NCBI GenBank assembly: GCA_946055775.1
Contig: CAMGHE010000010.1
Span: 1-35,482 of the forward strand
DNA from: an uncultured Bacteroidales bacterium
GTDB taxonomy: Bacteria > Bacteroidota > Bacteroidia > Bacteroidales > Bacteroidaceae
Direction: 5' to 3'
Length of the DNA: 35,482 nucleotides
The number at the start of each line of letters is the position of its first letter. The stretch's first letter is position 1. Under the pieces are notes generated by a model, which did no database searches, was not told the origin of the DNA, and was given only the letters and a program-made list of their open reading frames with translations. The position numbers and the translations under genes are program-made. Below are positions 12,538 to 35,482 of the stretch, in pieces.

Positions 12538-14865
12538 CTAATAGACGCGGGGAAAGAAGCCGGGGGCGTAGTAGAATTTGTAGGACTCGTATCTGGCCTT
12601 GAACCAGGCGTCGTGAGAGGGGTTGTTGATGCCAGAGGGGATGGTGCCAGCCACCAGGTGCTCATAGAAGGTCTGTAGGCCCTGATTGAGGCTTAGGTGC
12701 TGCATGTACCATTGTTCGTCACCAATATCGTGTGTGAGGATGGGCTCCGTGCCGTTGACGAACTCGTTGGACTGTATCATTTCGATGCTGACAGGGAAGC
12801 ACATCTTGCCGTGTACCAGTACGTCGAAGTCGGACTTATCCGGGTCGGCATCCTTGTTGAAGTAGCAGCAGTAGGCGAAACTGTCGTCGGGGTCGTACTT
12901 ACCCACGCCGGCATAGGTGTGGTAGTGTTCGTCGCTGCCGGCCAGGTTTTTCTCCTTGCCGCTGTGGTAGCAAGAGAGGAGCAGTCCCTTGTTGTAGCCC
13001 ACGAGACCGCCGATGACGCCATCGCCCTCGGCCCATGCCTCGACATCACCCACATGGGCGCAGGAGATAAGCCCACCTTTCTCACCCACGGTGCCGACGA
13101 GGCTGCCGCTGTATATGGCATTGTTGGATGGTACCTTCTGTCGTATGGTGCCTTCGGCAAAGATGGCGGCGATGAATCCGTCGCTCTCGTTGGCCACGAG
13201 GCCGCGGCCGTCCACCTCGATGACGTCGTAAAGGTGAAGGCCTTCGACGACGGCCTCGGAGCCCAGACGGTCGAAGAGGGGCTTGCCGTAGAGGTGGCGT
13301 ATGGAGCGTTTGCTGCCCAGGAAGTTGCCATTGAACATACATGTGCCTTCGCCGATGCTGCACCACTTTACCCGCTGGTCTGCGGTGGCGAAGAGCGAGG
13401 GCTGGAGCACGATGTCGGCATCGAGATGGACGTAGTAGCCCTCGAAGTTGAAGCCGTTGGTCAGCGTGGCCTCCGTGCCGTCTAAGCGTGTGTAGGTGGA
13501 GGTGACGCGGTCGGTACCCTTCACCTCATGGGCGAAGGACACCAGTTGGCTGGCCGTGGTGATGCTGAAGGGCGCCGCGGCCGAGCCGTCGTTGCCGTAG
13601 ATATCGACCAGCTTGTGCGTGGTGGGATGGATGTAGAGCCATGTGGCATCGTCCTCATTGGCCTTGGGGTCCCCCGCCAGCGTAAAGTTGCTGCGTTCGA
13701 GCATGTCGGCTGTGAGCAGTACGGTGTTCTTTTTCAGTTCGCTGTTGTCGGGCGTCTCGACATACTGCCAGTCCATGTATTCAGCGCCGACGGTGATTTC
13801 TTCGTTTTTATGGTTGAGGCTGATGTGGATGGTGGTGCAGTAGCCCGCACGATATTCGATGGGCGCGATGGCGGCGCGGTAGGTCTTAGTGAGCATCACG
13901 TCGGGGTTCATCGGGTCGGGATAGGACACGTCGAAGGTCATCTGCTGGCTGACGTCGGCACGAGGCACCGCCAGGGCGTAGAAGACGAACTGCTTGCCCA
14001 CGCCCGTACCGGTGCCGTCGGGGCGGGGAATCCACATGCGCGTGTCGAGCGTCTCATTGTCGGCATGGGGCAGAGGCGTGACCCCCGTTGACTGCTGCAT
14101 CCAGCGGTAGCGCACGGGCATATCGCGTAGCACCATGTGGCTGACCACCGACCGCGTGTCTGCGGCGTCGTTGCTGGCCGAGAAGCCCTGGATGTTGACG
14201 ATGACGCGGACATTGGCCAGCGCGTGGTGGAAATAGAGTTTGGCCACAGATCCACCCGTTTCCGACACCTTGTCGGTGTCGTAGGTGAGGAGCAGGTCGT
14301 CCGCCTTGATATTGGCATCTGTGGTATGATCGACGAAGCGCGTGACCACGTCATCTATGGTCTCCGAGCCTATGGAGCGCAGGGTGCCGCTGTAGATGCC
14401 GTGCTCGCCCAGTGTCCAGGCGAAGGTTTCGCGCGGCTGCGGCAGACTGTAGCCGATGTAGGTATGGGGGTTGGTGGCGTCGCTCCAGTAGATGGCGTCG
14501 GGCACCTGTGTGGGGTTGGCCTCGGTGCCGCCGCGATTTTCATCGCGGTCCCACCCGCCGGTGGTCTGTCCCACGCCCACGGTATGGTTAAAGACGATGT
14601 CCGAGTAGGTGAAGCCCGGTATGGGACTCATCGTACGCTTGATGGTGGTGAGCACCATTTGGTCAGCGTTGACAAAGACGCTGCGCCCCACGTGATAGTC
14701 CTTGTCCAGCGCAGGGGCGCGCTTGGCGGTGCTGCCATAGACCGAAGCCTCTATACCAGTGAGGGGGACGGCACCGATGTCGGCCGGCCCGGTGAGGGCG
14801 TCGTCGGCCGTGCAGGCTGCCAAACACAAGACAGAGAGAAGGAGGTATAGGAAACGGATCATCAT
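12538..14865 (-). CDS. Fimbrillin-like lipoprotein with GLUG-like tail
   Basis: This 775-residue product is the last gene of the array. The signal peptide ends LAAC with lipid Cys18, followed by TADD. A candidate pilin-processing arginine lies at Arg49 (AKRAPAL). The fimbrillin module runs to about residue 380: DAIYWSDATNPHTYIGYSLP, then FHHALANVRVIVNIQGF near 213 and YMDWQYVETPDN near 365. The long tail (about 400-775) has GNFLGSKRSIRHLYG, GSLVGTVGEKGG and GGLVGYNKGLLLSC, typical of GLUG or right-handed beta-repeat adhesive regions. The size and tail suggest a tip or adhesin subunit (inference). Two ATG codons are in tandem at the start; either may be used. Confidence 0.8.
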   Translation of the reverse strand: MMIRFLYLLLSVLCLAACTADDALTGPADIGAVPLTGIEASVYGSTAKRAPALDKDYHVGRSVFVNADQMVLTTIKRTMSPIPGFTYSDIVFNHTVGVGQTTGGWDRDENRGGTEANPTQVPDAIYWSDATNPHTYIGYSLPQPRETFAWTLGEHGIYSGTLRSIGSETIDDVVTRFVDHTTDANIKADDLLLTYDTDKVSETGGSVAKLYFHHALANVRVIVNIQGFSASNDAADTRSVVSHMVLRDMPVRYRWMQQSTGVTPLPHADNETLDTRMWIPRPDGTGTGVGKQFVFYALAVPRADVSQQMTFDVSYPDPMNPDVMLTKTYRAAIAPIEYRAGYCTTIHISLNHKNEEITVGAEYMDWQYVETPDNSELKKNTVLLTADMLERSNFTLAGDPKANEDDATWLYIHPTTHKLVDIYGNDGSAAAPFSITTASQLVSFAHEVKGTDRVTSTYTRLDGTEATLTNGFNFEGYYVHLDADIVLQPSLFATADQRVKWCSIGEGTCMFNGNFLGSKRSIRHLYGKPLFDRLGSEAVVEGLHLYDVIEVDGRGLVANESDGFIAAIFAEGTIRQKVPSNNAIYSGSLVGTVGEKGGLISCAHVGDVEAWAEGDGVIGGLVGYNKGLLLSCYHSGKEKNLAGSDEHYHTYAGVGKYDPDDSFAYCCYFNKDADPDKSDFDVLVHGKMCFPVSIEMIQSNEFVNGTEPILTHDIGDEQWYMQHLSLNQGLQTFYEHLVAGTIPSGINNPSHDAWFKARYESYKFYYAPGFFPRVY

Positions 14866-14928
14866 GATGCAACGCGAAAGGGAATGGGTGAGGGAAGATA
14901 AATGGGGTGAGAGAATATGGGAGATGGC

Positions 14929-16026
14929 TTAGGGAGCAGGGGGGACGGCTATAGGGTCGGCCAGCGTCACCTTGATGGGATACGAGTGTCCCTCCTCGAA
15001 GGAGGTGATGTCGAGCGTGGCGCTATAGCGGCGCTCCCCGTCGCGCAGCCAGAACACGGCCTTCTGCGTGAGGACGCAGGGCGGCACATAGAGCAGGTAG
15101 TGTAGGCGTTGGTCGGGGTCGGCATAGGCCGTATAGGTGGCCGTGTTGGACACGGTGCCCACCACGCGGCTATTGGCGCCGCCCGGATTGGCCGGTCCCC
15201 CCGTGAGCGTGGCGATGCTGGAGCGCCGTTTGGGCGTCTCTTCCAGCACCTCGATGCCCAGCACGTGGCCGTTGTTTTCGTAACTGCACGAGGCCTTCTC
15301 GCGGTAAGAGTAACTGTCGTTCTCGTAGCCGCGGTCGGCATAGTAGTCGCCGATGACCAGTTCGGCACCGTCGATGTCGGGCATCCCCTCGAGAGTGAGT
15401 AGTGCCGCGTCGGTCAGCGGATAGGGCTGCGGCACACCATCGACGGTTTGCGTGAGCGCCGCGTCGTCGATGGTGATATCGAGGCGCGCCACCTTGTGGG
15501 TGAAGATGAGGTGCACCTCCTTGGCCCCCGTCTGGCGGATGGCCTGCGCCCAGATGACGTCGCTCTGCTTGAAGTCTTCCAGTTTGCTTTGGTCGGCGCA
15601 GAAGAAGTTGCTGGGCCGTGTGTAGCGGTAGTTGTTGACGACGAAGATGCGTGTGCCCGTGGTGTTTTGTGCCGTATAAACATAAGTCGTGGCCTGCGCC
15701 TCGACGCTCTGTCCAGTGCTGATGTAGGTGGACCCCGTGCCGTCGATGGTGAACCCGTAGTAGCCCGAGCCCCACAGTTCGCCGCTCTGGTGGTCGTCCG
15801 TGTGGGGGCAGATGACCTTCATGCGGAACTTGTCGCCATTTTCCATGCTGAGGCCGTCGGTTGAGGTGCGCAGGGCCGGTTCGCCCTTGAAGGGGGCCAG
15901 GCTCAATTTGAGCGTCACGCCATCGTCCTGCGGCGTCAGCAGGTCTATGTCGTCGCCTGAGCATCCCGCCGCGGCGATGGTGGCGGCCAGGATGAGGCTA
16001 TGGGTGAAGAGAGTATGTTGTTTCAT
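14929..16026 (-). CDS. Fimbrillin-like lipoprotein, short single module
   Basis: At 365 residues this is the shortest complete member of the array. The ATG at 16024-16026 is chosen because it gives a lipoprotein signal (MKQHTLFTHSLILAATIAAAGC, written as residues 1-22 with Cys22) followed by SGDD; an in-frame start 36 codons upstream would bury it. Arg53 in PALRTSTDG is at the conserved candidate processing position. LIFTHKVARLDITIDD near residue 175 corresponds to the F-x-H-x-x-S-K-I strand of Mfa-like proteins, and the end SYPIKVTLADPIAVPPAP matches their last strand without the usual DW. It is flanked by two much larger members. Confidence 0.75.
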   Translation of the reverse strand: MKQHTLFTHSLILAATIAAAGCSGDDIDLLTPQDDGVTLKLSLAPFKGEPALRTSTDGLSMENGDKFRMKVICPHTDDHQSGELWGSGYYGFTIDGTGSTYISTGQSVEAQATTYVYTAQNTTGTRIFVVNNYRYTRPSNFFCADQSKLEDFKQSDVIWAQAIRQTGAKEVHLIFTHKVARLDITIDDAALTQTVDGVPQPYPLTDAALLTLEGMPDIDGAELVIGDYYADRGYENDSYSYREKASCSYENNGHVLGIEVLEETPKRRSSIATLTGGPANPGGANSRVVGTVSNTATYTAYADPDQRLHYLLYVPPCVLTQKAVFWLRDGERRYSATLDITSFEEGHSYPIKVTLADPIAVPPAP

Positions 16027-16106: not shown

Positions 16107-18869
16107 TTAGTTGGGCTGCTCGATGGGGTTCCAATCTTTGACGTCGTTGGCAGAGAGTTGTCCCTCAACGAGTTTGGGGTAGCGATGGACGTAGGTGGTG
16201 CTCTCCGCCGCATAGTGCATGGTGCAGGGGTGGTGCGAGCCGCGGTTGGCGTTATACCACCAGATGGCATAGTTCATGGCATGGTAGGGCGCCAAACCAT
16301 AATACTGTTCGTAGTTGGCCTGCTTGAGGAGTGTGGTCATGGGGACGTTGTGCACAAGGTAGTCGTTCTTGGCGCGAAGGATGTCGGTGGTGCCGCCGCG
16401 GATATACTCCAGCAGCGAGTAGTCGTCTGTGGTGTTGCCAACGGCATTGGCCGCAGGGGCAATCTGCTTGTCGTAGTAGTTGCACATGAAGTTGCGGAAG
16501 GCTGGGCGCTGTGCTGCCACCTGGCTGTTGGCCTTCTGTACGCTCAGTTTGATTTGCGGTTTGAGTGTGCCCTCGATGTCGGTGCCCACCAGGGCACCGC
16601 CTGTGATGTCCTTGGCCGCCTGCATACATCCCAGCATATTGATGCTGCCCGCCGTGCCCACCAGGGCGCCTCCCCCGTCGCCCACATGGATGCAGCCCAC
16701 GACGTAGGATGTGCCGCTTACGCCCTGCTCCATGGTCAGGCTGGTGGCGATGCTGTTGCCCGTGCTCGGTGCCAGCAGGGAGATGCCCGCCAGGTAGATG
16801 GGATTGACGCCCTCGTTGAGCAGGGCTGTAGCGTGCGTGCTCTCCACGCGGAGGTTGGTGACGGCAGCCCCGTAGGGCGCCTTGCCGTCCATGTAGCCGA
16901 AGAGGTATTCGTCCCTCATGTGGAGGTTGCGGAGGCAGTGGCCGTCGCCGTCGAAGCAGCCCATGAAGGGTGTGGCCGCGCTACTGCCGATGCTCTCGAG
17001 CGCCCAGTCTTTGAGGTCCAGGTCGCTGGCCAGCCGGACGGTGAAGTTCATGCGCAGGTTGTCGTCATAGAAGGGGAAGGCCCCTTTCAGGTAGTCGCGC
17101 TCAGAGTGTGCCGCCTTGTCGGCATTGGCGGGGTAGTAGTGGTCGTAGAAGATGTAGCCCATTTCCTCGGCCTCCTCCTCCTCAATCCATACGGGGTTGA
17201 ACTGGCTGTTGGTCAGCGACCACCCGTAGGTGTCGGGCTCGCGGATTATCTGCCCGCCGACAACCGTCTCCTTGTACGTCTTCACCAGGCGGTAGAGTCC
17301 AGACGTTTGTGTGGCCGCTGTGCCGTTGACCAGGCGGATGAACTCAAGAAACTCCTTTTCGTTGCTGATGACAAACTCGGGGTTATAGTCGGTTGTGCCC
17401 GCATTGCGTATGGCTGTGGCGATGGCGTCCTTCCACCAGGTGTAGTCTTTCGTTGTCGAGACGGGCTGCTCGGCCCCCTGATTGGTGCCTTCGCCCTCAG
17501 TCTCGGGCTCCTCGGTCCACGACAACTTCTTGTCTGCCACAACGTAGAGGCTGCCGTAGCGATAGCCCACACGGAAGGTGTAACTGGTGCCCGGCGTCAT
17601 TTTCAGACCGTTGGGGAACGCCGGGATAGGTTTGCCGTTGGCGTCGGTGATGACCTTGCCATTGCTGTCGCGCTCCACGATATCGCGCAGCGAGAAGATA
17701 TGGTAGCGCCCCTCGTAGCCTGGCGTGTTGAAGCCGTCGCCATTGTTGACGTCGTACATGTAGATGCGGAAGCGCGTGCAAGGCGGCAGCACAAGGATGT
17801 CGCCTTGTGCCTCGCTGGTGCTCATGTCGTAGGGGATGGTGATGAAATACTGGCTGCCGTTGATGCCGCAGAAGAAGGGGCGCTTGGCCTCGGTGGCGAT
17901 GGCGTCGGCATCCTTGGTGCCGTAGGCGATGAAGATGTTGGGGTCTTGGTCTTCGAGGCGGCGCACCTGATCGTTGCTCAGGCTGCTCCAAGCCTCGGTC
18001 TTGACGGCATAGAGCGTACCGCTCTGCATGTTGACACCCGCCGGCATGCACATGCGGCGGAAGACCGCCGTCACGCTGTCACATTCGGCTTGGGCCAAAG
18101 CGTCGGGCTTGCCCGCCTCGGTGGGGGCATTGTCATTGTCGGTGATGTCGGCGTTGTCGGCATACTTATAGTCTTGCCAGCCGTCGAGGCGCTCTGTGCC
18201 ATTGGGGTTGATGCCCGCGCATAGTTCAATGCGCTGAATCTGGTTGCCGCTCTGGAGCACGCGGAACACGATGCGGCTGCCCAGGTGGTTCAGTACGAGA
18301 GGGATGCCTGCTGTGGGGCCCGAGGCATTCACCCAGCCCGCCATGCAGAAGTCGGGGTAGAAGTAGGTGGGGGTGGCGTTGCGCAGCACATTATTGTAGT
18401 TGCTTTGGCTCCAGGCGCGGAAGCGCAGCGTGCGGCCGTTCTCCCACGTCAGAGAGTCTGCCTCGGTCTGTGTGAACGTCGTATAGATACCATCGCCATC
18501 CTTATCGTCATAGCCCTGACGGCCAGACTCGGGCAGCCAGTCGATACCCAAGTGGATGTCGCCCGCGGCATATTTATGCATCAGGTAGTAGGTGCGATAG
18601 ACCTCTGCACGCTCCCAGTTGCCGTCCTGGCCCAGATAGTTGCGGTAGATGCGCATGCGGTCGTTTTGGTTGAACGAGCCGTCGTCGATGGTGGTATAAC
18701 TGGTGGCGCGTTTGGCGAAGGGGTCGGCCACCGATACGTTGAAGTTGACGGCGCGGCCTATCCACGCACGCTGGTCGGGCGACAGGGCGGACACGTCCAG
18801 GTCGTCTTGTGAGCATGCTGAGGCCATGGCGACCAGCAGCAGGCAGAGAATATGGTGGAAAATCTTCAT
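16107..18869 (-). CDS. Large fimbrillin-like lipoprotein with GLUG-like tail
   Basis: A 920-residue lipoprotein whose signal peptide ends MASAC (Cys19), followed by SQDD. Arg54 in FAKRATSY is the candidate maturation site. The fimbrillin-like region is about 40-450: NQNDRMRIYRNYLGQ, then LVLNHLGSRIVFRVLQSG near 195, and a strand YTFRVGYRYGSLYVV ending in LSWTEE. A Glu/Thr-rich linker follows, then a beta-repeat tail with GCFDGDGHCLRNLHM near 640 and two GGALVGT repeats near 737 and 760. It starts 6 bp after the stop of the preceding gene, so translation may be coupled. Likely a tip or adhesive subunit; function inferred. Confidence 0.78.
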   Translation of the reverse strand: MKIFHHILCLLLVAMASACSQDDLDVSALSPDQRAWIGRAVNFNVSVADPFAKRATSYTTIDDGSFNQNDRMRIYRNYLGQDGNWERAEVYRTYYLMHKYAAGDIHLGIDWLPESGRQGYDDKDGDGIYTTFTQTEADSLTWENGRTLRFRAWSQSNYNNVLRNATPTYFYPDFCMAGWVNASGPTAGIPLVLNHLGSRIVFRVLQSGNQIQRIELCAGINPNGTERLDGWQDYKYADNADITDNDNAPTEAGKPDALAQAECDSVTAVFRRMCMPAGVNMQSGTLYAVKTEAWSSLSNDQVRRLEDQDPNIFIAYGTKDADAIATEAKRPFFCGINGSQYFITIPYDMSTSEAQGDILVLPPCTRFRIYMYDVNNGDGFNTPGYEGRYHIFSLRDIVERDSNGKVITDANGKPIPAFPNGLKMTPGTSYTFRVGYRYGSLYVVADKKLSWTEEPETEGEGTNQGAEQPVSTTKDYTWWKDAIATAIRNAGTTDYNPEFVISNEKEFLEFIRLVNGTAATQTSGLYRLVKTYKETVVGGQIIREPDTYGWSLTNSQFNPVWIEEEEAEEMGYIFYDHYYPANADKAAHSERDYLKGAFPFYDDNLRMNFTVRLASDLDLKDWALESIGSSAATPFMGCFDGDGHCLRNLHMRDEYLFGYMDGKAPYGAAVTNLRVESTHATALLNEGVNPIYLAGISLLAPSTGNSIATSLTMEQGVSGTSYVVGCIHVGDGGGALVGTAGSINMLGCMQAAKDITGGALVGTDIEGTLKPQIKLSVQKANSQVAAQRPAFRNFMCNYYDKQIAPAANAVGNTTDDYSLLEYIRGGTTDILRAKNDYLVHNVPMTTLLKQANYEQYYGLAPYHAMNYAIWWYNANRGSHHPCTMHYAAESTTYVHRYPKLVEGQLSANDVKDWNPIEQPN

Positions 18870-18875
18870 GGCAGG

Positions 18876-21443
18876 CTAATATTTGGGTAAGGCGGGAATG
18901 CGGTCCGTCACTTTGTCGGTGCCGGCAGCGCCATCCTTACAGTTTTGCACGTTGCCTGTGATAACGGCTCCCTCTTTGAACAAACGTGCGCCTTTGACGG
19001 TGAGGTTGAGCACCTCGGCGCGCCATCCTGTGCCCGTGGCGGCATCCTTGTAGGGCAGCCAGTAGGCCCCCTCCTTGTGGACGTTGGCCAGCCATGGGCC
19101 AGCATAGGCAGGGTTGTCTTCCTGCGGTGTGGTGTAGGTACCGTTGAGGCCGGCGAAGAGTGCCGTGCACGATGTGTGCTGGACGATGCGATAGAGCACG
19201 GTCGGCTTGACATAGGGCGTGTAGGCCGAGCCGTTGTAGGTATAATAGGTCGTGGTGCCCGTCATCACCTGCTCCACCGTGGGCGTAGCCTCGTGGTAGG
19301 TGTCGTAGGCCTCCGTCTTGATAGTGGCTGTGGTGGCCTTGATAGAGGACGATAAGACATTGTACCCCTTGAGGTCGCCCACTTTGGCCACCTTCGAGTC
19401 GTCGCGTACCACCCATTTACCCTCTGTAGAAGGTTGGAGCACGAGGGTGCTCTTGTCGTAAGTCGTGCCATCCACCTCGACGATGTCGTCGGCCGTGTAA
19501 TAGACCGGCTGGAGTGTGGCGGTGACGTAACTTTCACCGTTGACGATGGTCAGTTCGGCCGTCGTATAATAGACCGCCTCGTGGTGGGTCTTGGTGTAGA
19601 GTTGCGGCAGGGCGAAGGGCGTTGTTTCGATGTTGGAGTAGGCCTCGGCCGGTTTGGTGTCGTAAAGGTTGCCCGGACTGCTATAGTCCACCGTCTCGAC
19701 ATACTCCTTCCACGGCGTGTCCGTGTTGGTCAGCGTGATGGTGTGATACTTTCTGTCGTCCTCGCCGAAACCGTTGAGGTGGCCAGTGAAGACGAAGTTG
19801 TCCGGCAGCATGCGGGCATCGATAGTCATGTCCAGGCTGAGGTTAAAGTAGTCGCCATGGTGTGCGCCGCCCTCGTAGGCTTCGGAGAAATACTTTATCC
19901 ACGTCTTCTCGCTCAGATACTGGCCCGTGGCATCGTCTTCGCCCGTGGTGCCCTCGTCGTAAAATCCGCCGTCCGTCACCTTGTCGCCGCCGTCGTTGAT
20001 ATAACTGTCCTTGCGGCGGGTATAGGCGCGCTGCCACGAACTGCCCGCCTGCGACAGCGTATGGCCATTCTTATTGTCCACGCCGTACCACTCGTCGCGG
20101 CTCGAGGTCTCGAGCCATACGTCGGCGCCCGAGGTGTTGTAATCGACACCCTCCTTGCTGACGTGCAGATAGACCACCGTCTCGTAGTTGGCGTCGAGGT
20201 CAAACTCGAAGGTTTTCTCGTAGGTCAGACCGTTCTCCAGGGTGATGAGGAAGTCTATCTGGTTGGTTCTGTTGGCCAGCTTTTGCCGCTTGACGGGGTC
20301 GGCATAGCCCTCCTCGTCGTACATGACATTGTCGTAGGAAGTATAGGTGGGTCGGACGATAAGGTCGTAGATGGGGACGTGCTGATAGGTCACCTTCTCA
20401 TAGCCCGCCGGCGAGGCCGCCACCTGTTCGTATTTGGCATTGCGGGGATAGACGATCTCCTTGGCCGACTTATAGACCACCATCGTCTTCTCCTCACCAT
20501 AGAAGTGGGGCGTTACCTTGCGCACACGTTCGGCCCATTGTGGGGTGAGCGTGTGCAGGCGTGTGTTCGCATCATAAACATCATGGACGCCGCGGAGCAC
20601 ATCGACGTTGCAAAACTTGATGGCTGTGGTGTTGGGGTCGTCGGGCGTTGTGATGGTTCGCTGTTCCTCGTCGTGCACCACGTAGTAGCCTTTGATTTTC
20701 GTGTCCAGTTCGGGGTCTATGATGATGTAGGCCATGACGTGGGCCAGGCGGTGGCGGAAGGGCAGTTTGATGCGTTCGACGGTGGCCGATATGCGTGTGT
20801 TGGCCTGCATGCCCAAGTAGTGTGAGAGCAGGGTGTAGTTGCCCAGCGCGTTGTCGGTGCCCGTGCTGGTGTCGTTGCTCTGGTTGGTGGTGAGGTATTT
20901 CACGGCCGCCACCGACGCCACGCCATTGAAGTCAGTGCGGTCTGTCTCCATTTCACTGGCGTCCGTGTTGAAGCGGATGCGTGTGGGCACATGGACACCC
21001 TCGAAATAGTGTGGGCCGTTATCCAGCCAGCGGGCTTTGTCGTCGGTCACAGCGCCGTCTGCTGCGCGATAGTTGAACGAATAGACGGCCAGGCCACTTA
21101 CGGGGTGGGTGTCATAGACCTGATTGTCTATGGTGCCGCCCTGCAGTTTGAGGATGGCCACGCGCTCCGTGCTCTTGTCGCCCACCTTGCCAAAGGTGAT
21201 GTCCAGGCCCTGCTTGAGGGGCTGGATGAGCCACGACACCTGCTCGGCATCCTGCACGGCGCCAGTGGCGCGTGTCAGCCGCAGGGGCGTCAGGTCCGAC
21301 GTCACCGTCAGTCCAGAGGCTTCTGCGCCGACGTTGATGACGTTGTCCCCGCTGTCGCCACCCCAGGCCATATCGTCGGAGCATCCGCAGAGCGTCAGAG
21401 CGCCTGCGGCCAGCAGTGTCAAATAAGCGTATGTTGTGCTCAT
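18876..21443 (-). CDS. Large fimbrillin-like lipoprotein, divergent
   Basis: This 855-residue product is the most divergent array member. The start at 21441-21443 (ATG) is preferred: it lies 10 bp after the preceding stop and gives the signal MSTTYAYLTLLAAGALTLCGC (Cys21) followed by SDDMAW; the frame is open 19 codons further upstream into the preceding gene. Arg58 in LRLTRATGA fits the conserved site. PFRHRLAHVMAYIIIDPELD near residue 234 resembles the F-x-H-x-x-(S/A)-K/H strand. The C-terminal half is beta-rich with many Tyr and Thr (for example NFVFTGHLNGFGEDDRKYHTITL) but no clear GLUG repeat. Surface subunit of unknown exact role. Confidence 0.72.
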   Translation of the reverse strand: MSTTYAYLTLLAAGALTLCGCSDDMAWGGDSGDNVINVGAEASGLTVTSDLTPLRLTRATGAVQDAEQVSWLIQPLKQGLDITFGKVGDKSTERVAILKLQGGTIDNQVYDTHPVSGLAVYSFNYRAADGAVTDDKARWLDNGPHYFEGVHVPTRIRFNTDASEMETDRTDFNGVASVAAVKYLTTNQSNDTSTGTDNALGNYTLLSHYLGMQANTRISATVERIKLPFRHRLAHVMAYIIIDPELDTKIKGYYVVHDEEQRTITTPDDPNTTAIKFCNVDVLRGVHDVYDANTRLHTLTPQWAERVRKVTPHFYGEEKTMVVYKSAKEIVYPRNAKYEQVAASPAGYEKVTYQHVPIYDLIVRPTYTSYDNVMYDEEGYADPVKRQKLANRTNQIDFLITLENGLTYEKTFEFDLDANYETVVYLHVSKEGVDYNTSGADVWLETSSRDEWYGVDNKNGHTLSQAGSSWQRAYTRRKDSYINDGGDKVTDGGFYDEGTTGEDDATGQYLSEKTWIKYFSEAYEGGAHHGDYFNLSLDMTIDARMLPDNFVFTGHLNGFGEDDRKYHTITLTNTDTPWKEYVETVDYSSPGNLYDTKPAEAYSNIETTPFALPQLYTKTHHEAVYYTTAELTIVNGESYVTATLQPVYYTADDIVEVDGTTYDKSTLVLQPSTEGKWVVRDDSKVAKVGDLKGYNVLSSSIKATTATIKTEAYDTYHEATPTVEQVMTGTTTYYTYNGSAYTPYVKPTVLYRIVQHTSCTALFAGLNGTYTTPQEDNPAYAGPWLANVHKEGAYWLPYKDAATGTGWRAEVLNLTVKGARLFKEGAVITGNVQNCKDGAAGTDKVTDRIPALPKY

Positions 21444-21453
21444 GATGTGCGTG

Positions 21454-24400: not shown

Positions 24401-24537
24401 GGCACGTTGGTGGTGAATGTCACGGCCTCGCCCTCCGTAAACCCGGCGGGATTGGGGTCGGCGAAGGGCTGGAAGTCTGAGCAGGCGCTGAGGCCAGCCA
24501 GCAGGACATATATGATGATATGATACAGTGCTTTCAA
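21454..24537 (-). CDS. Very large fimbrillin-like lipoprotein with GLUG repeats
   Basis: The largest member at 1027 residues. The only start that keeps the signal peptide (MKALYHIIIYVLLAGLSAC, Cys19, then SDFQ) is a TTG at 24535-24537, preceded on the coding strand by runs of eight C and eight A. Arg53 in SAKRSFSP fits the candidate processing site. The fimbrillin module (to about 390) includes LQHQRAWITVILKAGEGV near 219 and ITAWIEDWTEV near 381. A long beta-repeat tail follows, with GFVGGIAAV near 552, GGGIAGYATGRVSNNTFE near 592, AGGLIACAAQ near 880 and YYGGIVGGTSPKG near 920, typical of GLUG-type adhesive regions. Probably an adhesin or tip protein (inference). Confidence 0.8.
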   Translation of the reverse strand: MKALYHIIIYVLLAGLSACSDFQPFADPNPAGFTEGEAVTFTTNVPAHRSAKRSFSPDADLLEGYTTIQDDYTLTVHMLEESVDGAIGTCAYKPRPAETITETNRGYDETGLLEPAEGMGTPLHWPSNQKRYAFEATAGTDVLETDQSTPTLWLAQDRLHGYAYMPLLDDTKPAGNQGVDRIDAPNYHTNKEWGAMNKVWKNAMGEMLQPADYKHIPLFLQHQRAWITVILKAGEGVKREALHFDNASTNIRMAINSFTKEGSNLIATPITEPLASEYLIDYEKDANGEAQTKVSTTRYDAIVEPYNYGGARKEEDVIAKINLSDQNFSFYAGNDNRYINGKGEEAEAEAAYNLEAGKHLTIEVTLSRESRKILITAWIEDWTEVATSTICDDYGQNGTPIVIKSREELIAFLADPKTNRQGSVGIIQPIAIDLDAPSDWTGEYDLNATLNMAGCTLSTKHRLFNSMSSSANLLNGTILMGEGAEVDCAIARTNDGTIERVNVVTNGEQSTARATVAGMVSLNHGTIYRCTSSLPVYGATPTTQTDGNGSYTGFVGGIAAVSVSPDGTSMAAIDGCMVNAAVNGAATIKGGGIAGYATGRVSNNTFEYGITIKQGGGNFKNIFAEAGAADLRAYGNGWPTTAVNPINDASPETNPNKYGGTLYDGVIDCQEELAMLLSAAYNLMDRNYRISKSFTVQRSDDPATDWVYGTVFADDLNNANNVHFNLDGNDKTITLTGNKTVTTTTGTKPGEGTATHYATAPMLFNYVLGEIKDLTLYMEQSIVAEPSVSAETGEYNATDAIAPLAYAVYGAKGKLTNVSVKAHKDGEGRNDVYVQAATPSGLVVWAYGGATIKGCKVQVPVRMWLPENLGTQSKHYAGGLIACAAQASILESSYLMQTDNAVCGADNSTAAIRTANCYYGGIVGGTSPKGTENPSLQIADCSSWYNAQRPAEGAADRSSKGAIIGYTCYATTGSDSQIVNGMSSDRISEGNWWPLSAVGANYWATGLNEEKVIGKRNSVVPTFDTDF

Positions 24538-24563: not shown

Positions 24564-24573
24564 CTTGTGGGGG

Positions 24574-28394: not shown

Positions 28395-28418
28395 GGCAGT
28401 TGTCGTGGTTGGTAGGTG

Positions 28419-28444: not shown

Positions 28445-28451
28445 GCTGGCC

Positions 28452-30605
28452 TTACATCCAGATGGGCGTGTCGGCGGTGACGGTGTCCCAGTCGGCGATG
28501 GTGGCGGTGACGGTGATGCCCGTCTTGGTGATGGTCAGGGTGTAGATATACTTTTTGCCCGGCTCCCAAGCGTCGATGGTCTTGGGCACGCCGCCTTCGT
28601 TGACCTGAATGCCCTTGATGCCGAGCACCGTCTCGTAGGCGTCACTGGTCGCGCCGCCGTCTTCGCTCACGGTGATGCGGAAGGCCAGGTTGCCGCTGGT
28701 GTTCGTCAGGCTTTGCGGTACGATGGCATCTCGGTAGTTGGCATATTTCGCTGGCTCACCAAGGCTATTGTCGTTGGCCATGATGTAGGTAGCCGGCGTA
28801 TTGTCGGTGAAGTCCGAACTGCCATCGCCCAGCATCAGTGCGCCCTCGGTGTAGCCGTTGAGAATCTCCACCTTGGTATGCTCGTTGAAACTTACGCGGT
28901 TGGTGGACGAGACGTCAGCGTTGGTCTTCAGTTGGACGATGACCTGCGACATGGCATACTGGAAGTTCAGGTGTATCTTGCCGTCGGCATCGTGTGTGCT
29001 GCCGTCCGGGGCATCGGTGGCGCAGATACCCCCCACGCCGTGCTCTTCGCCCGTCTTCTTGCAGGTTTCGTCGGGCGTGCCGTCAGCCTTTCGCGGCAGG
29101 CCCAGGCGCAGGTCAGAGGGATATTGCCCCGCTGTGTAGGGCTCGTTCTGCACAAGGATGCGCTTGCCGCCGTCCAACTTGGCAGCCGTAGGCCCGGTGG
29201 CACTACCCACCTGCGGCCAGATGGCTCGGAAGAAGTAGTGCGTCTTGTGGTCGGGCCAGTAGAGTTGCGGCGTCATGACGTAGCGGCTGTGCTCGGCGTC
29301 GTAAGAGATGACGGCTTGGTCGCTGTTGTCGGTATAAGGTCCCGCCATCCTGTCGGTGCTGCGGTACAGGCTGAAGGTCTCGGTGAAGGCCGCGCCGTCC
29401 TGACCGTAGCATTTGTCGAAGTTGATGATGGGTGCCTCGTTCGCGGCCTCGATGTTGTCCCAATCCTTGGTCGTGGCCGTTATGTCAACGCTCGTTTTGT
29501 TGACCGTAATCTGGAAAACATAGTTGGTGCCCTGTTGCAGCGTCGTGGTGAGGCCCGCGGCCGTCATGGCCTCGTTGATTTTCTTTGCCGTGACCAAGTA
29601 TTCGTTGCCGTCGGCCATGATGCTGAGCACGTTCGTGGCGTCGGCGAAGGCACACTGGGGAAAGACCAGCGCCGTCAGCGTCGCGGTGTGACTACCGCCG
29701 CCCATGCTGACGTGACACAGTATGTTGCCCTTGGCTGGCGTGCTGTCGTCGGCAAAGTCGGTCGCGGTGGGCGTGCTGGTTTTATGGATAATATCTACCA
29801 GTCCGACGTAGGGGAAGTCCAGCAGGGTCACTCTGGGCACATCTTGAAATGTGGGTTGCCCTGAACCGTTTGGCGCGAAGCCCTTGCCCGCGGTCAGTTC
29901 GACGGTGATGCGCGTCATGGCGTGGGTGAACTCCAGCAGGTTCGACGGCGTGTTGCCCGACTTGCCCGAGACGTCGTCAAACTTCAGCGTGCCGTCGCCA
30001 GTGGCCGTGACATTGTTGCTGGTCAGCAGGTCACTGTTGGTGACGGTGGTGCCATCACTTTGGTTTAAGGGCAGGGTCCAGTGGAGTCTTGTCCAATCGC
30101 CCGACTCCAGCATGACCTTCAGGTTATTGTTGCTGGCGTTTGTGCCGTCAGGCAGTGTGCCCACCTGATTTGAAGTATCGATATAGTTGGCCACTGCCAC
30201 ACCATAGATATTCAAGCCGTAGGCCCGGCCGGCGGTATTGGCTGGGTCGGCCGTGTGGAAGTCGTCCCAGTAGAGCATGGGGTCCATGCTTACTTCGTTA
30301 TGCTTGCTCGCTTCCGAATAGCCCACGAAGTCGGTCATCGTGGCCGTGGTGCGCAGACGCCACCACCCGTCGCTCCGCTGGCCGTCCATGCGCAGTACGG
30401 CTTTCGTCATGTAGGGTTCGAAAACGATATGCTCGCCATGGTTGTCGTCGATGGCGCGCAGGGGGCGCGCCTGCTGGCTGATGCTGGCGCGCAGCGTGAT
30501 GGCGCTGTCGGCTGCTCCTACGCTATAGGTCGGCGTAACCTCCTCGCTACATGCCGCGGCGAGCATGGCAAGCACAATGCAAAAGATATAGGGAATGCGT
30601 CTCAT
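28452..30605 (-). CDS. Two-module fimbrillin-like lipoprotein
   Basis: A 717-residue product with signal peptide ending LAAAC (Cys19), followed by SEE. The candidate site is Arg50 in RPLRAIDD. Module 1 has DPMLYWDDFHTAD, FTHAMTRITVELTAGKGFAP near 227 and YVFQITVNKTSVDITATTKDW near 380. Module 2 has PQLYWPDHKTHYFFRAIWPQ, FQYAMSQVIVQLKTNADV near 549 and YIYTLTITKTGITVTATIADW near 706, with a short tail DTVTADTPIWM. The start ATG is only 3 bp after the previous stop, implying translational coupling. The strong similarity of the module ends to those of the next upstream gene suggests recent duplication. Confidence 0.86.
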   Translation of the reverse strand: MRRIPYIFCIVLAMLAAACSEEVTPTYSVGAADSAITLRASISQQARPLRAIDDNHGEHIVFEPYMTKAVLRMDGQRSDGWWRLRTTATMTDFVGYSEASKHNEVSMDPMLYWDDFHTADPANTAGRAYGLNIYGVAVANYIDTSNQVGTLPDGTNASNNNLKVMLESGDWTRLHWTLPLNQSDGTTVTNSDLLTSNNVTATGDGTLKFDDVSGKSGNTPSNLLEFTHAMTRITVELTAGKGFAPNGSGQPTFQDVPRVTLLDFPYVGLVDIIHKTSTPTATDFADDSTPAKGNILCHVSMGGGSHTATLTALVFPQCAFADATNVLSIMADGNEYLVTAKKINEAMTAAGLTTTLQQGTNYVFQITVNKTSVDITATTKDWDNIEAANEAPIINFDKCYGQDGAAFTETFSLYRSTDRMAGPYTDNSDQAVISYDAEHSRYVMTPQLYWPDHKTHYFFRAIWPQVGSATGPTAAKLDGGKRILVQNEPYTAGQYPSDLRLGLPRKADGTPDETCKKTGEEHGVGGICATDAPDGSTHDADGKIHLNFQYAMSQVIVQLKTNADVSSTNRVSFNEHTKVEILNGYTEGALMLGDGSSDFTDNTPATYIMANDNSLGEPAKYANYRDAIVPQSLTNTSGNLAFRITVSEDGGATSDAYETVLGIKGIQVNEGGVPKTIDAWEPGKKYIYTLTITKTGITVTATIADWDTVTADTPIWM

Positions 30606-30608
30606 GTC

Positions 30609-32744
30609 TTACTGTATTTGCACGTCGTCCCGTCCAGCCTCAATCTCCTCCCAATCCAGGATGGTGGCCTTCAGGTCGGTGATGCCCTTCTTGGTCAGTT
30701 TGAAGCGGTAGGTATATTTCACACCCGGATACCAGCGGTCCACTTTGTTGTCCGTGTAGGCGGGGTAGAGGACGTTGTCAGCACTGATGGCCGAGGTGGC
30801 TCTGACCTCCTTCATCGTGACGATGTATTGGTTGTGGTCGGGCGTGGTGATGACCAGCACCACGTCGTTCAGGGCCTGCGGCACGGCGCCGTAGCCCTGC
30901 CACTTTACATGCCCGGTGCCATCTGGTGCCTGTAGGGCGGTAAAGACGTAGTCTGTCGTTGGTGCGTCAGCCACCACCAAACCATTGCCCAGGAACACTT
31001 TGCCCGTGGTGGCAATGTGTTGCAAGGTGATGGTCGTGTGGTTGAGTGCTGTGCCGTCGCCCAGATCGACACGGTCTTCGCCATCCGAGGTGTAGATGTC
31101 GAACGAGACATCGCTCATGGTGTGGAACATCAGCAGGCGTATCTCGTCCTTTGTAGCGCCGATGGCGGGGTGTATGCGGTGGCTGTCGTCGGCATCGAAG
31201 CCGTGTGTCGTGGTGTAGGCCATCTTCTCCGAGTCGGCGATGTCCTTGAACGGGGCACCCCAGGTGATGTCGGTATAGGTCTCGCCGTGCGTCAGGCCCA
31301 CGTAGTCGCGGCCATCGCCGGTCGTCGCCTTCGTCTGCCCCATGGGCGCGATGGCGCGCAGGTGGTAGAAGGTTTTATTGTTTGGCCAGTACCAGTCTGT
31401 CTGCAGTTTTCGCGGCGTGCCTGTCAGTCTGTTCGGCCCTTCATAGGTGCCGCGCCAGACGTAGCCCTTGCCCATGTCTGTCGTTATGTCGTCGGTGATA
31501 TTGGCGGCTGTCTCGCCCAGACGGTAGATATCGGCATCGGTCACGGTGCCGCTGCGGTCTTCCAAGTTGAGTGTCACCTTGGCGTTGCTTGGGTACAGTT
31601 CTTCTGACCCTACTTGCTCCCAGTCGAGCAGGGTGGCGGTGATATGCTCAATGCCCGTCTTGGCGATGATTAGGGTGAAGACATAGTTGACGCCTGGCTT
31701 GAGCCGTGTGCCGTCGGTGAGGTGGGCGGTGCGGTCGGCCGCAGTGATTTTCTCCAGCAGGTCGGCCTTCGACAGTTGGTAGTGGTTGTCGGCGATGGTG
31801 AAGTCGATGTCGCCCTTTACTGCCGTGTTCAGGTCTGTTGTGGGCATGACGAGGGCCTCCAGCGTGTAGCCGGTGGCGGCGCTGCCGCTCTGCGCCATGG
31901 TCTGGATGACCTCGCCGGAGTAGGCACCGGTAAACTCGCCCGTGGCGATGTTGAAGAGTGTGTTTTTGGTGTAGAAGTTCTCCAGCCGGATGTTCGTGTT
32001 CGGGTCAAACACAAACTCGCTCTCCTCAAAGCCCTTGCCGCGCTGCACCACGAAAGTGATTTTCGATAGCGCGTGGTAGAAGGCTAAGCGGCCGTGGTCG
32101 AACTTCCCCGTCAGCGTGTTGCTGAACTTCAGCCGGCCGTCACCATAGGGCGCGGCGTTGTTGGCGATGTTGTTGCTGTAGCACAGGTCTTCGTCGCGGA
32201 GCGTCGTTGCCGTCTGGTTGGTCGATACCGCCACGTTGGCGACGGTCAGGTCATTGACCGTCGTGCTCCAGGCGCCCGTTGTCGGCAGGGCGGTATATTG
32301 GTAGTCCGACCGTCCGCCGATGGTGATGGTCTTCGTGCTGCCCGGTGAGCAGGCGGCATAGATAGACACCTTTGCGTCGCGGGCATAGCAGTCGTCCCAA
32401 TAGCGCATGTAGCCTTCGCCAAACTGCACCCGGTTGACCTTCTCGGCATCGGGCGCATCGGTGATGCCCTTCGTCACGGCATAGAGGGGCGTTACGGCGT
32501 CCTTCTCGCTCTTCATCACCATGAAGAGGGCCGTCCCCTCTGGCAAGTGCCCGCGGTCGGCCACAGCAGGGTCCTGCGTGATGGCGCGTTTCTGGATGGA
32601 GACCGTGTTTGTCCCTCCCACCGACAGTTCGATGGGACTCCTGTCCGCGACGATGGGGTCGGGGACAGTCGCCTCCTCCGAGCATGCCGTCAGAAACCAC
32701 AGGCACGACAGGGTGAACAGTATGTTCTTTGTTAGATAAAACAT
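30609..32744 (-). CDS. Two-module fimbrillin-like lipoprotein
   Basis: The 711-residue protein starts at the ATG 32742-32744, chosen because it gives the signal MFYLTKNILFTLSCLWFLTAC (Cys21, then SEEA); a frame extending 20 codons upstream reads into the gap hairpin. Arg53 in IQKRAITQ is the candidate processing site. Module 1 contains YMRYWDDCYARDAKVSIYAAC, LRDEDLCYSNN, FYHALSKITFVVQRGKGFEE near 225 and ITATLLDWEQV near 373. Module 2 contains TDWYWPNNKTFYHLRAIAPMG, FHTMSDVSFDIYTSDG near 541 and LKATILDWEEI near 697. It is very close in plan to its two neighbours. Likely a type V pilus-like subunit. Confidence 0.86.
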   Translation of the reverse strand: MFYLTKNILFTLSCLWFLTACSEEATVPDPIVADRSPIELSVGGTNTVSIQKRAITQDPAVADRGHLPEGTALFMVMKSEKDAVTPLYAVTKGITDAPDAEKVNRVQFGEGYMRYWDDCYARDAKVSIYAACSPGSTKTITIGGRSDYQYTALPTTGAWSTTVNDLTVANVAVSTNQTATTLRDEDLCYSNNIANNAAPYGDGRLKFSNTLTGKFDHGRLAFYHALSKITFVVQRGKGFEESEFVFDPNTNIRLENFYTKNTLFNIATGEFTGAYSGEVIQTMAQSGSAATGYTLEALVMPTTDLNTAVKGDIDFTIADNHYQLSKADLLEKITAADRTAHLTDGTRLKPGVNYVFTLIIAKTGIEHITATLLDWEQVGSEELYPSNAKVTLNLEDRSGTVTDADIYRLGETAANITDDITTDMGKGYVWRGTYEGPNRLTGTPRKLQTDWYWPNNKTFYHLRAIAPMGQTKATTGDGRDYVGLTHGETYTDITWGAPFKDIADSEKMAYTTTHGFDADDSHRIHPAIGATKDEIRLLMFHTMSDVSFDIYTSDGEDRVDLGDGTALNHTTITLQHIATTGKVFLGNGLVVADAPTTDYVFTALQAPDGTGHVKWQGYGAVPQALNDVVLVITTPDHNQYIVTMKEVRATSAISADNVLYPAYTDNKVDRWYPGVKYTYRFKLTKKGITDLKATILDWEEIEAGRDDVQIQ

Positions 32745-32805: not shown

Positions 32806-35139
32806 TTAGTCTTCTAGGGTGATGTCTTTATCGCTGGCATGAACGTCAATCCAATCGGCCACGGTGCAGGTGATGTTTTCTATGCCCTTCTTGCTGATGA
32901 AGAAGGTATAGATGTAGCGGTGGTTAGGCAGCCAGTGGGTGATGGGGGTAGAAGAGCCCTGCGGCGTAATCGTGCTCAGGTCTTCGATGCAGTAGTACAG
33001 GTTGTCGTCGGGCGTCTGAATCTTGATGGCCACCTTGCCTGTCTTGGCGTTACCACGGCTGAGGGTCTGGGGCACGACGCGCCAGGAGAAGGCATTGGTC
33101 ACTGTCGGGTTGGTTGCAAAGAACGTTGCGGGCGTATTTCCCGGCGACGTCAGCAGTTGTGTTTCCGTCGCATAGTCGGCCGGCGCTACTGCCTTCACAA
33201 AGCCGTTGCCCATCTTGACCTGACCATTGCGGGCAAACTGGTAGAGGGTGACGGTGGTAAACTGCTGGGCAGGGTCCTTGGTGCTGTCATAGAGTTTGAC
33301 GCCGCCATCAGCCTCAGACTTCGTCTTGACGATGACCTGTATCTCGCTCAGCATGTGGAACTCCTGGATGGCGATGGTGCCCGTCGTCGAGCCGATGGCC
33401 TTGTAAATGATGTCCGTGTAGCCTTCGTTGGTGCCTTCAGTGATGTTATATTTTGATGCGGCCTTATCTGTGCCAGAGTAGTTCTTCAGCGGGGCACCCC
33501 AGTGTGGGTCGGTGCTGGAGGCAGCGCCGTCGTGGATGGTGAAGTAGTCGTCCGTAGCATCGCTTGTGCCCAAAATGGCCGTACCCTTATTCACCGTGCG
33601 GAAGTGGTAGAAGGTTCGGTTGTCCTCGAAGTACCAGTTCGTCTTCCAGTTCTTAGAGGTTGCGTAGTCATCGGCTTTTGAAAGCGAGCCGTCCGTCGTC
33701 GTGGCCTTGTCGGTATAGTTGCCGCTCCACTCATAGTTCTCGTAGGCGTCAGCCGAGGGCGTCGTCTGGCTGGTGTGGATGCCGCCGGCATCTTTCGGCA
33801 GGCGGTACAGGTCAAAGTTGTCACAGGCTGTGCCCTTCGTGTCCTTGAGACCGAGGGTGACGTACGAGTTGTACAGGGGCTTCTCGGCGGCCGTCACGTC
33901 CAGCCAGTCGGCTACGGTGGCCGTCAACGACTCTACCTTGGTCTTATTGACGGTGATGGTCAGCACATAGTTCTTGCCCTGCTCCATGGTGTAACAAGTC
34001 GTTTCGGAATCGCTCAAACCATTGCCAGGGGCAGCCTCTTTGAGGGCCTTGAAGATGAGGTCCTGCGTGATATAATAGGTATTGTCATCGATGGTGAACT
34101 GCAGGACGTTTGTGGGGTCGCCATTGTTGAAGGCGTAGCCCGGCAGCATCTGCATAGAGGTGGTGTACGAGGCGTAGAGGGTGGAGCCACTGGGGCGTAC
34201 CACCGTCGGCTGGGTGGTGATGGTTGGTGTGGGAGTGACGCCTTCCCATTGCCCTGTCGAGACGTCCAGTGTGCCCGAGTACTTCATATATTTGGCCTGT
34301 ACACCGGCTGAGCTGAGCTCAAAGTTGTTGGTGGCATCGAAGCCCTTGCCGCTCTTGATGGTGATGGTCAGTCGCGACAGACTATGGTTGAAGATAAGGT
34401 GGCCCTTGTCAAACTTGCCTGGCGACGTGGGGTCGAGAGGGTCCGACAGCGAAAAGCGCATACGGTCCTGGGTGAACACATTGGGGGCAGTCAGCGCTGC
34501 GTCGATGTTGGGCACGTATGCACTGCTGCTGAAATTCCACACATAGCGGCCAGCCTCTCCGGTCGTGGCGTCCTTGCGGATATTCCGGCTATATACCAGG
34601 TCCTCGTTCTCAAGAGTGGTGGCGTTCTGAGTAGTAGCGACCGTCCATTGTATCTTGTTGTCCTCTGCTGTGGTGGTCCATCCAGAGTCCGGTCCCTTCA
34701 GTTTGTTTTCTACCAGCAGACCGGCATCGTTCTTATTCGGAATGGCCACGGCAAAGACCGAGAGATGGGCGTTACGGCCGAAGGCATCGTCCCAGTAGCG
34801 GATGTAGGCGTTGTCCTGGCCCACGGTAGAGTATTTCTTGTCGCCCACCTTGGTGTTGGCTACGGCCAGCGTCTTGGTGTAGCGGTGGTTACCCGTGGCA
34901 GCCTCGTTGTTATCGCTCTGTATGCGCATCAGGATGCGTGTCGGGGCAGTAAAGCCATCGTATGTGGGGGTCAACGGGGCACGTTTCATCGTCCCGGTCG
35001 CATTGTCGCCCAGGCCCACAGAGAGGTTGATCATTTCGCCTTCCCCGCTGGGTGTGGTGCTTTCTGCCATGTCGCTGTCGGAGCACGACGTGGCCAAAAG
35101 GGTGGTGGCGAGAGCCGCCAAATAGAGGAACTGTTTCAT
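32806..35139 (-). CDS. Two-module fimbrillin-like lipoprotein
   Basis: The first complete gene of the array (in transcription order) encodes 777 residues. The signal peptide MKQFLYLAALATTLLATSC gives lipid Cys19, followed by SDSD. Arg53 in TMKRAPLTP is the candidate processing site. Module 1 has NAYIRYWDDAFGRNAHLSVFA, LENEDLVYSRN, FNHSLSRLTITIKSGKGFD near 248 and LTATVADWLDV near 411. Module 2 has TNWYFEDNRTFYHFRTVNKG, FHMLSEIQVIVKTKSEADG near 596 and ITCTVADWIDV near 763. The messenger upstream of the start is A-rich with AAGG, usual for Bacteroidetes initiation. Surface-exposed pilin-like subunit by inference. Confidence 0.87.
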   Translation of the reverse strand: MKQFLYLAALATTLLATSCSDSDMAESTTPSGEGEMINLSVGLGDNATGTMKRAPLTPTYDGFTAPTRILMRIQSDNNEAATGNHRYTKTLAVANTKVGDKKYSTVGQDNAYIRYWDDAFGRNAHLSVFAVAIPNKNDAGLLVENKLKGPDSGWTTTAEDNKIQWTVATTQNATTLENEDLVYSRNIRKDATTGEAGRYVWNFSSSAYVPNIDAALTAPNVFTQDRMRFSLSDPLDPTSPGKFDKGHLIFNHSLSRLTITIKSGKGFDATNNFELSSAGVQAKYMKYSGTLDVSTGQWEGVTPTPTITTQPTVVRPSGSTLYASYTTSMQMLPGYAFNNGDPTNVLQFTIDDNTYYITQDLIFKALKEAAPGNGLSDSETTCYTMEQGKNYVLTITVNKTKVESLTATVADWLDVTAAEKPLYNSYVTLGLKDTKGTACDNFDLYRLPKDAGGIHTSQTTPSADAYENYEWSGNYTDKATTTDGSLSKADDYATSKNWKTNWYFEDNRTFYHFRTVNKGTAILGTSDATDDYFTIHDGAASSTDPHWGAPLKNYSGTDKAASKYNITEGTNEGYTDIIYKAIGSTTGTIAIQEFHMLSEIQVIVKTKSEADGGVKLYDSTKDPAQQFTTVTLYQFARNGQVKMGNGFVKAVAPADYATETQLLTSPGNTPATFFATNPTVTNAFSWRVVPQTLSRGNAKTGKVAIKIQTPDDNLYYCIEDLSTITPQGSSTPITHWLPNHRYIYTFFISKKGIENITCTVADWIDVHASDKDITLED

Positions 35140-35276
35140 ATCGCCTTGTGTTTTTTTGTTGCTTATGGTGGTTGTTTTGTTTTTTGTTTGGTGTCGCGGG
35201 TGGCAGCGCGGTTTCGACGCGTCTTCGCTTTTAACGCGTTTTCTTGGCGGCGCGTTCTCGCTTTTGCCCCGCCCCC
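35140..35276. other. Largest gap inside the array, A-rich leader and near-direct repeat
   Basis: The 137-bp spacer has a near-direct 15-bp repeat (35218-35232 and 35251-35265, CGCGT-CTCGCTTTT type with one transposition of bases). On the coding strand a long A-rich tract follows just before the start of the 777-residue gene. No TAnnTTTG box was found, so an internal promoter is unproven. Confidence 0.4.
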
Positions 35277-35482
35277 TTACTGTTCCAGGTCGGTGTCTAA
35301 ACTGCCTGTGACGTCCTCCCAGGGTACGAGGGAGGCGGTGAAGGTGAGGGCGAGTTTATCGGGTGTGCTACCCTCTGTGCCGAGCACGAGGTAGTAGGTG
35401 TAGATGAAACCTGACCGCCAGGTGTGTTTGGGGTGGTAGGTGCCATCCAGTTCGTATTCGATGGGCACGTCGGTGAACGTCT
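35277..35482 (-). CDS. Fimbrillin-like protein, C-terminal end (partial)
   Basis: The frame is open from the right edge to a TAA at 35277-35279, giving the last 67 or so residues of another array member. The sequence PKHTWRSGFIYTYYLVLGTEG followed by LALTFTASLVPWEDVTGSLDTDLEQ matches the terminal strands of the neighbours (W-x-x-G-x-x-Y-T-Y, then an alternating strand ending in W). Everything upstream, including its signal peptide and number of modules, lies outside the window. It shows the array continues beyond the sequence given. Confidence 0.75.
   Translation of the reverse strand, partial: TFTDVPIEYELDGTYHPKHTWRSGFIYTYYLVLGTEGSTPDKLALTFTASLVPWEDVTGSLDTDLEQ

Follow-up and report, generated by a model that had tools for sequence, protein, structure and literature searches.

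What does a run of eleven fimbrillin-like lipoprotein genes build on the surface of a member of the Bacteroidales? The question was raised by a contig from an uncultured Bacteroidaceae bacterium (GenBank assembly GCA_946055775.1, contig CAMGHE010000010.1, positions 1 to 35,482), which was analysed over its full 35,482 nucleotides and is called the window below; it is the entire contig C10 of a draft genome of 2.2 Mb and about 85% completeness. A sequence-only reading of the window had reported a tandem array of ten complete genes and one partial gene on the minus strand with gaps of 3-137 bp, and the open reading frames and their coordinates bore this out. The array occupies 12538-35480. After start correction, its complete reading frames encode 365-1027 amino acids and span 12538-35139 on the minus strand, with gaps of 3-80 bp between complete genes and of 137 bp between the cut gene and its complete neighbour. 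Genes were numbered in the direction of transcription, from the cut gene g0 to the last gene g10. Our analysis indicates that the array is probably the downstream part of a 14-gene locus for a large multi-subunit type V pilus, exchanged between genomes as a cassette. An expanded multi-subunit type V pilus was one of three readings proposed earlier and is the best supported of them, on the strength of a profile comparison with controls and of conserved tryptophan (Trp) tails. The gene set, its order, the modules, a putative processing site and a split into stalk-type and other genes are all read directly from the DNA.

The impression that the array holds only subunit-like genes is correct for the window, because the contig ends at position 35482, but not for the genome. 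The right end of the window is identical over 55 bases to the beginning of another contig of this genome, C94, and because of this exact overlap the two contigs very probably adjoin. C94 carries, all on one strand, the genes u3 (DUF3575 type), u2 (DUF5119 type) and u1 (FimA-like) and the front of g0, which matched our family profiles at 434-768 bits; the Pfam names of these four genes were taken from their orthologs in genome G076, and the FimA-like part of u1 rests on profile comparison. The gene g0 encodes a single-module fimbrillin-like lipoprotein, of which the window holds the 3' end (35277..35480, minus strand, 67 amino acids, g0 profile match of 79 bits); the remainder is an open frame of 399 codons running off the start of C94 (434 bits to the g0 profile). 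The full set, u3-u2-u1-g0 to g10, comprises 14 genes over about 29.5 kb (hand-summed) and probably forms one operon. The stretch upstream of 35482, which was to be checked for an anchor, protease or regulator, supplied u3, u2, u1 and the rest of g0; a FimB/Mfa2-type anchor family was not matched by the G076 orthologs of these genes, and u2 is proposed as a functional stand-in.

To characterise the encoded proteins, ortholog families were compared, using hhalign, with a set of 24 ordinary Mfa_like_1 regions from the genus. Each of g1-g4 contains two modules by this measure (p94-99); a single module was recognised in u1, g0, g9 and g10 (p96-97), g5 (p88) and g6 (p87-92). Values were borderline for g8 (47-48), weak for g7 (20-24) and 0 for u2 and u3. 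Five of five unrelated window proteins and 13/13 reversed alignments stayed below 2, indicating that the module matches are more than chance. Pfam Mfa_like_1 (PF13149) was found in two stretches in each of g1-g4, and once each in g5 and g9. The earlier description of every gene as Mfa/FimA-like is therefore upheld for eight of the eleven (g0, g1-g4, g5, g9 and g10), likely for g6, borderline for g8 and not sustained for g7. Searched against the PDB, the g1-g4 profile (A4) matched the solved adhesion protein 4k4k (E 5.6e-7) and, weakly, 3t2l (0.016), while profile searches of the PDB with g6, g8, g10 and u2 returned no credible match. Neither the ten window proteins nor the u3, u2, u1 and g0 proteins of G076 had an NCBIfam match.

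Excerpts of PMC5789003 describe type V pilus precursors as lipidated and cut at Arg43-54 in Mfa1, Mfa3 and Mfa4, the anchor Mfa2 remaining uncut; shaft proteins carry a conserved Trp before the final strand, and the tip protein continues for 105 residues past it. A lipobox-type signal was found, by pattern, in 10/10 complete window genes. The motif R-[AST] lay at Cys+15 to Cys+54 in 81/97 pilin-family proteins (expectation about 23.5) and in 0/5 u2 proteins, a count drawn from 102 of 127 rows after 25 were dropped as partial or without a lipobox. The site stands about 30 residues past the Cys; it was seen in only 3/7 u1 and 2/4 g0 proteins, and in g3 and g8 the first match is frequently found further upstream than is typical. 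Of the 83 g0-g5 proteins, 81 carry a Trp 9-20 residues from the C-terminus (16.7 expected); the figures are 4/84 for g6-g10 (all four g7), 3/14 for u1 and 0/13 for u2. These counts divide the operon into stalk-type genes (g0-g5) and others (g6-g10). A corresponding Trp at the junction of the two modules was kept in 54/54 g1-g4 proteins. Extra, tip-like C-terminal regions mark g6 and g10, with GLUG in some orthologs (weakly in g10), and g8, whose C-terminal region is common with g10. The locus appears to fit a type V pilus in most of its sequence landmarks; a recognised FimB/Mfa2-type anchor is lacking and g7 is unplaced.

The same landmarks bear on the possibility, also raised in the sequence-only reading, that these proteins make a heterogeneous coat of clustered FimA-fold lipoproteins, each an adhesin held singly by its lipid and never polymerising. 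We consider such a coat unlikely. It would agree with all ten complete window genes being predicted lipoproteins, with a stalk-type tail that is mostly missing in g6-g10, and with our failure to find a C11 (clostripain family) peptidase in the draft genome of the window. However, a coat would need neither the conserved R-[AST] motif nor the stalk-type tails of g0-g5, and a C11 peptidase was present in 16/16 other carriers searched. According to excerpts of PMC12632263, a surface clostripain cleaves Bacteroides pilins.

Among the stalk-type genes of the window, all on the minus strand like the rest of the array, four encode double Mfa-like pilins with a stalk-type tail: g1 (32806..35139, 777 amino acids; PF13149 in two stretches, modules at p98 and p94, Trp 15 residues from the C-terminus), g2 (30609..32744, 711 amino acids; Pfam, hhalign, lipobox and tail Trp), g3 (28452..30605, 717 amino acids; Pfam, hhalign and tail Trp) and g4 (26484..28394, 636 amino acids; PF13149 at 141 bits in two stretches, 4k4k_A at E 1e-4, and hhalign). 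The Mfa-like pilin g5 (24574..26415, 613 amino acids; PF13149 at 35.7 bits, p88) also has this tail and is about 200 amino acids longer than several of its orthologs. The tip-type g6 (21454..24537, 1027 amino acids) combines an Mfa-like N-terminal region (p87-92) with a GLUG-type C-terminal one; its C-terminal region is also similar to that of g10 (p97). Six of 12 g6 orthologs matched GLUG and 3/12 Mfa_like_1 at E values up to 0.05, and neither was detected in window g6. A large surface lipoprotein with no established fold is encoded by g7 (18876..21443, 855 amino acids), which has a lipobox and an R-A site in 8/8 rows counted. A second tip-type protein, the surface lipoprotein g8 (16107..18869, 920 amino acids), resembles g9 in its N-terminal and g10 in its C-terminal part, as judged by hhalign. 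The single Mfa-like lipoprotein g9 (14929..16026, 365 amino acids; PF13149 at 40 bits, p96) has no stalk-type tail. The tip-type g10 (12538..14865, 775 amino acids) has an Mfa-like N-terminal (p96-97) and a GLUG-like C-terminal region; Mfa_like_1 was matched in 7/9 of its orthologs and GLUG in 2/9 (best GLUG E only 0.03), neither of them in window g10. The starts of g2, g7 and g9 were reset from 32804, 21500 and 16134 to 32744, 21443 and 16026 using signal and lipobox positions.

Is this gene set kept elsewhere? Families were built from the window's genome, G069, G076 and G030, then sought in 13 loci from a g6 scan of named genomes (two of them G069 and G076 again), in the upstream regions of those loci where these were fetched, and in seven further genomes chosen from the 17 with a g8 match among 399 genomes of the family. 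Among these 17, the g8 match was weak in G510 and G618; G617, G668 and G797 had strong matches and were left out of the reading of the g8 region, G676, on a contig equal in length to that of G456, was left out of the analysis, and G467 has the g8 coordinates of G450 and is probably the same genome. Gene order within each contig was consistent in 21/21 genomes or records with at least two genes in view (the window's genome, G069, G076, G030, G450-G456, L058, L059, L065, G671, G804, G691, G792, G715, G774 and G538). The complete run from u3 to g10 lay on one contig in 11 of them (G076, G452, G455, G456, G671, G804, G691, G792, G715, G774 and G538), with flanks that vary from genome to genome. 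Gene number among the 14 families varies mainly within g1-g4: the double-pilin genes number three or four per carrier, and it is not always clear which one is missing (G671, G792). Split genes were seen for u1 in G455 and G774 and for g6 in L065. The g6 gene was found in 4/58 genomes of the genus; among 393 genomes across the order, g8 was found in the window's genome only, using a narrower alignment (A2) and a sample poor in genomes of its own family. Six of the 13 titles of g6-scan records contain horse or 'equi', and the other seven name no host.

The variable number of double pilins, together with six stalk-type and five other genes following u1 in one locus, could be taken to mean that the operon encodes several different pili on a common base, with a separate stalk formed by each double pilin and each tip-type protein assigned to one of these pili. 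This is less likely still than a coat: no sequence feature pairs any stalk with any tip, and g5-g10 were present in every case where that stretch of the operon was read completely, including cases with a double pilin missing.

Within the array of the window, BLAST found full-length paralogs only among g1-g4, at 24-29% identity; a match between g1 and g5 covers just 48 residues of the signal region. Orthologs are far closer, with 35-65% identity between the window's genome and G076 and 68-93% between it and G069, and the genes are therefore distinct parts rather than spare copies. Seven 49-base elements, 61-80% identical to the reference, lie at the C-terminal end of 7/8 modules of g1-g4. The sequence-only reading had also suggested a stock of variant subunits for recombination. 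In the form of subunits that recombine inside one genome to vary the expressed pilin, which the tandem paralogs g1-g4 with their variable gene number might recall, this is contradicted already and very improbable, given that gene order and ortholog identity were consistent in 21/21, that a search of the array for long near-identical repeats found none and that a separate start and signal sequence is present in all ten complete genes.

Exchange between genomes was investigated by pairwise identities and Mantel correlations. Identities of g6 correlated with those of u3, u2, g8, g9 and g10, with rho between 0.50 and 0.73 and permutation fractions of 0.0045 or less. PPDK was tried first as the species marker; it showed no clear correlation with g6 or g8, but its copies in the window's genome and G076, which belong to one genus, were only 77% identical. 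Because PPDK looks unreliable, rpoB was added; the copy of the window's genome was not found. For the seven operon families compared with rpoB, in 10-12 genomes each, rho ranged from -0.15 to 0.30 and the correlation was in no case clear, the lowest permutation fraction being 0.076 (g8). One pair of genomes illustrates the pattern. The RpoB proteins of G715 and G792 are 99% identical, and their operons occupy the same site beside ATP synthase-like genes. Their DNA is 86% similar through the flank, stopping at the end of u2; the proteins are 75% identical for u3 and 74% for u2, and only 30-55% from u1 on. The genes u1 to g2 of G792 are closer to those of G671 (51-65%), although RpoB is 94% identical there. 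Part of the gap between G715 and G792 may come from fast divergence; the closeness of G792 to G671 is more simply explained by replacement of a structural cassette. It appears that this gene set is passed around among related gut bacteria.

Assembly may be pictured as follows. The DUF3575 protein u3, taken as an outer-membrane protein, and the DUF5119 lipoprotein u2, which lacks the processing site, would form the base. Pilins would arrive at the surface as lipoproteins, and an Arg-specific surface protease, for example a C11 peptidase, would cut after the R at about Cys+30, freeing the first strand and opening a groove to be filled by the C-terminal strand past the conserved Trp of the next subunit. 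The double pilins g1-g4 would serve as ready-linked shaft units, and g6, g8 and g10, in which large C-terminal regions replace the donor tail, could be adhesins at the end or on the side. The structural genes would pass from one species to another as a cassette, located behind base genes that are better conserved. A fixed-order heteropolymer, ready-linked double pilins and a serotype-like exchange are inferences. Stated in full, about eleven non-interchangeable pilins would follow one another in a set order, with shaft units of ready-linked double pilins and several beta-helix adhesins, and the locus would behave like a serotype locus in which the DUF3575/DUF5119 base is kept and the structural cassette replaced from other species; this full version is a tentative proposal, which we regard as possible and less probable than its opposite.

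Several observations weigh against a pilus of this kind. At E values up to 0.1, scans of the ten window genes and of u3, u2, u1 and g0 of G076 returned no Pfam family of the FimB/Mfa2 type. Besides the C11 peptidase not being found in a draft genome of about 85% completeness, the sole C25 match of that genome is the window gene at 1054-4905 beside PorV, which looks like PorU, a name taken from its PorV neighbour. For g7 there was no convincing fimbrillin match in the profile comparison (p20-24) and no Pfam family for the window protein at E 0.05. Support for g8 is mainly indirect, coming from its g9-like N-terminal region (p95, columns 2-207) and g10-like C-terminal region (p98, 394-725), and no Pfam family was matched in 10/10 of its orthologs. 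The R-[AST] motif follows the module-1 Trp in 11/14 g2 and 11/14 g3 proteins (1/10 in g1 and 1/16 in g4), so that the term 'ready-linked' may fail for some double pilins. In G453, a carrier of three double-pilin genes and of g5-g10, none of u3, u2, u1 and g0 was matched in roughly 19 kb of sequence upstream of g1, and the base genes are therefore not always adjacent. The exchange analysis is not a formal recombination test, and g4 did not follow the distance pattern of g6 (rho 0.20, fraction 0.158). To our knowledge, six stalk-type genes in one pilus have no characterised precedent.

The surroundings and composition of the locus were also inspected. The GC (guanine plus cytosine) fraction of the array is 0.57-0.62, within the 0.53-0.63 of the whole window, and its composition is therefore not marked as foreign. 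The window contained no Rfam match, tRNA or tandem repeat; no plasmid match was obtained at megablast sensitivity, and no viral relative of g1 was found. A PorU-PorV-IspF neighbourhood was considered as a required context and discarded, other carriers having different flanks. In two genera the pilus locus does lie downstream of IspF, PorV and PorU-like genes in opposite orientation (window 1054-6840; G671:C1 approximately 2959700-2965000, where the names were read from sequence starts only). A homologous gene for a lipoprotein-like protein of 279-326 amino acids, 44-81% identical, flanks the operon in four carriers (C94, i.e. L011, 6899-7780; L049 6844-7800; L051 6867-7706; L084 417-1394), beside u3 in three of them and beyond g10 in G069. 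The N-terminal half of u3 itself (L011:5113-6564, minus strand, with orthologs in alignment A12) contains the invariant stretch GAASPEG and, after it, conserved positions with N and R, a region which, judged by eye, resembles the peptidoglycan-binding domain of OmpA. Upstream of u3 in G671, G076, G450, G456 and G455, no consistent inverted repeats of the kind expected for a possible invertible promoter were found. In G076 this upstream region (L049:5950-6850) holds a cluster of related elements, each about 32-35 bases long and present in either orientation, forming 43 inverted pairs, which were not seen upstream of u3 in the other four carriers examined.

Some carriers have additions of their own. 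An extra gene for a large protein of 560-1602 amino acids, homologous in four loci, lies between g3 and g4 in two (L066:970-5775 and G774:C84:26021-30316), just before g4 in L062 (583-3057) and before g1 in L061 (551-2230); it matches no operon family, and the L066, L062 and L061 copies, the three scanned, gave no Pfam match. In G454, g6 occurs on two contigs (L062 and L064) whose common part is 89.5-97% identical in DNA, and this genome has either two operon copies or two strain versions.

Among the titles and abstract openings listed from an open-access subset of the literature, no such operon was described, which is not proof of its being unpublished. Smaller relatives of the locus were seen in our own material. 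One cluster (L080, G456:C50:60000-79000) starts with clear relatives of u3, u2 and u1 (401, 398 and 211 bits) followed by further large genes, and L082 and L085 are possibly similar, with weak u3 matches (38 and 74 bits) and no u2 match reported; no relatives of g6-g10 were detected in any of the three. L080 lies in a genome that also has the giant operon, and two PIN-domain genes, as in toxin-antitoxin pairs, stand inside it. As G671 is a single-contig genome, a cultured host of the full operon may exist.

Compared with the mfa1-5 and fimA-E systems of Porphyromonas gingivalis, as presented in excerpts of PMC5789003, the locus shares lipoprotein pilins, a putative Arg processing site after the first strand, a conserved Trp ahead of the last strand of shaft proteins, a C-terminal extension in the tip type of protein and a proposed anchor that is not cut. 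Unlike those systems, it has 14 genes rather than five, two FimA-like modules per chain in g1-g4, GLUG-type C-terminal regions, and a proposed base of DUF3575 and DUF5119 proteins in place of Mfa2/FimB. The three-component type V pili of gut Bacteroides (tip, stalk and anchor, with clostripain processing; excerpts of PMC12632263) follow the same general plan with one stalk and one tip gene, whereas many of each are present here and no C11 peptidase was found in the window's draft genome. If the proposed pilus is real, it would allow two questions to be tested: what fixes the order of subunits in the absence of chaperones, and whether pilus types are exchanged among gut Bacteroidales as capsule types are. 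Characterised type V pili consist, in these sources, of three kinds of structural protein (PMC12632263) or are encoded by five genes (PMC5789003); a conserved version with 14 genes, among them tandem pilin fusions and several adhesin-like subunits, would show that the composition of this pilus class can be far more complex.

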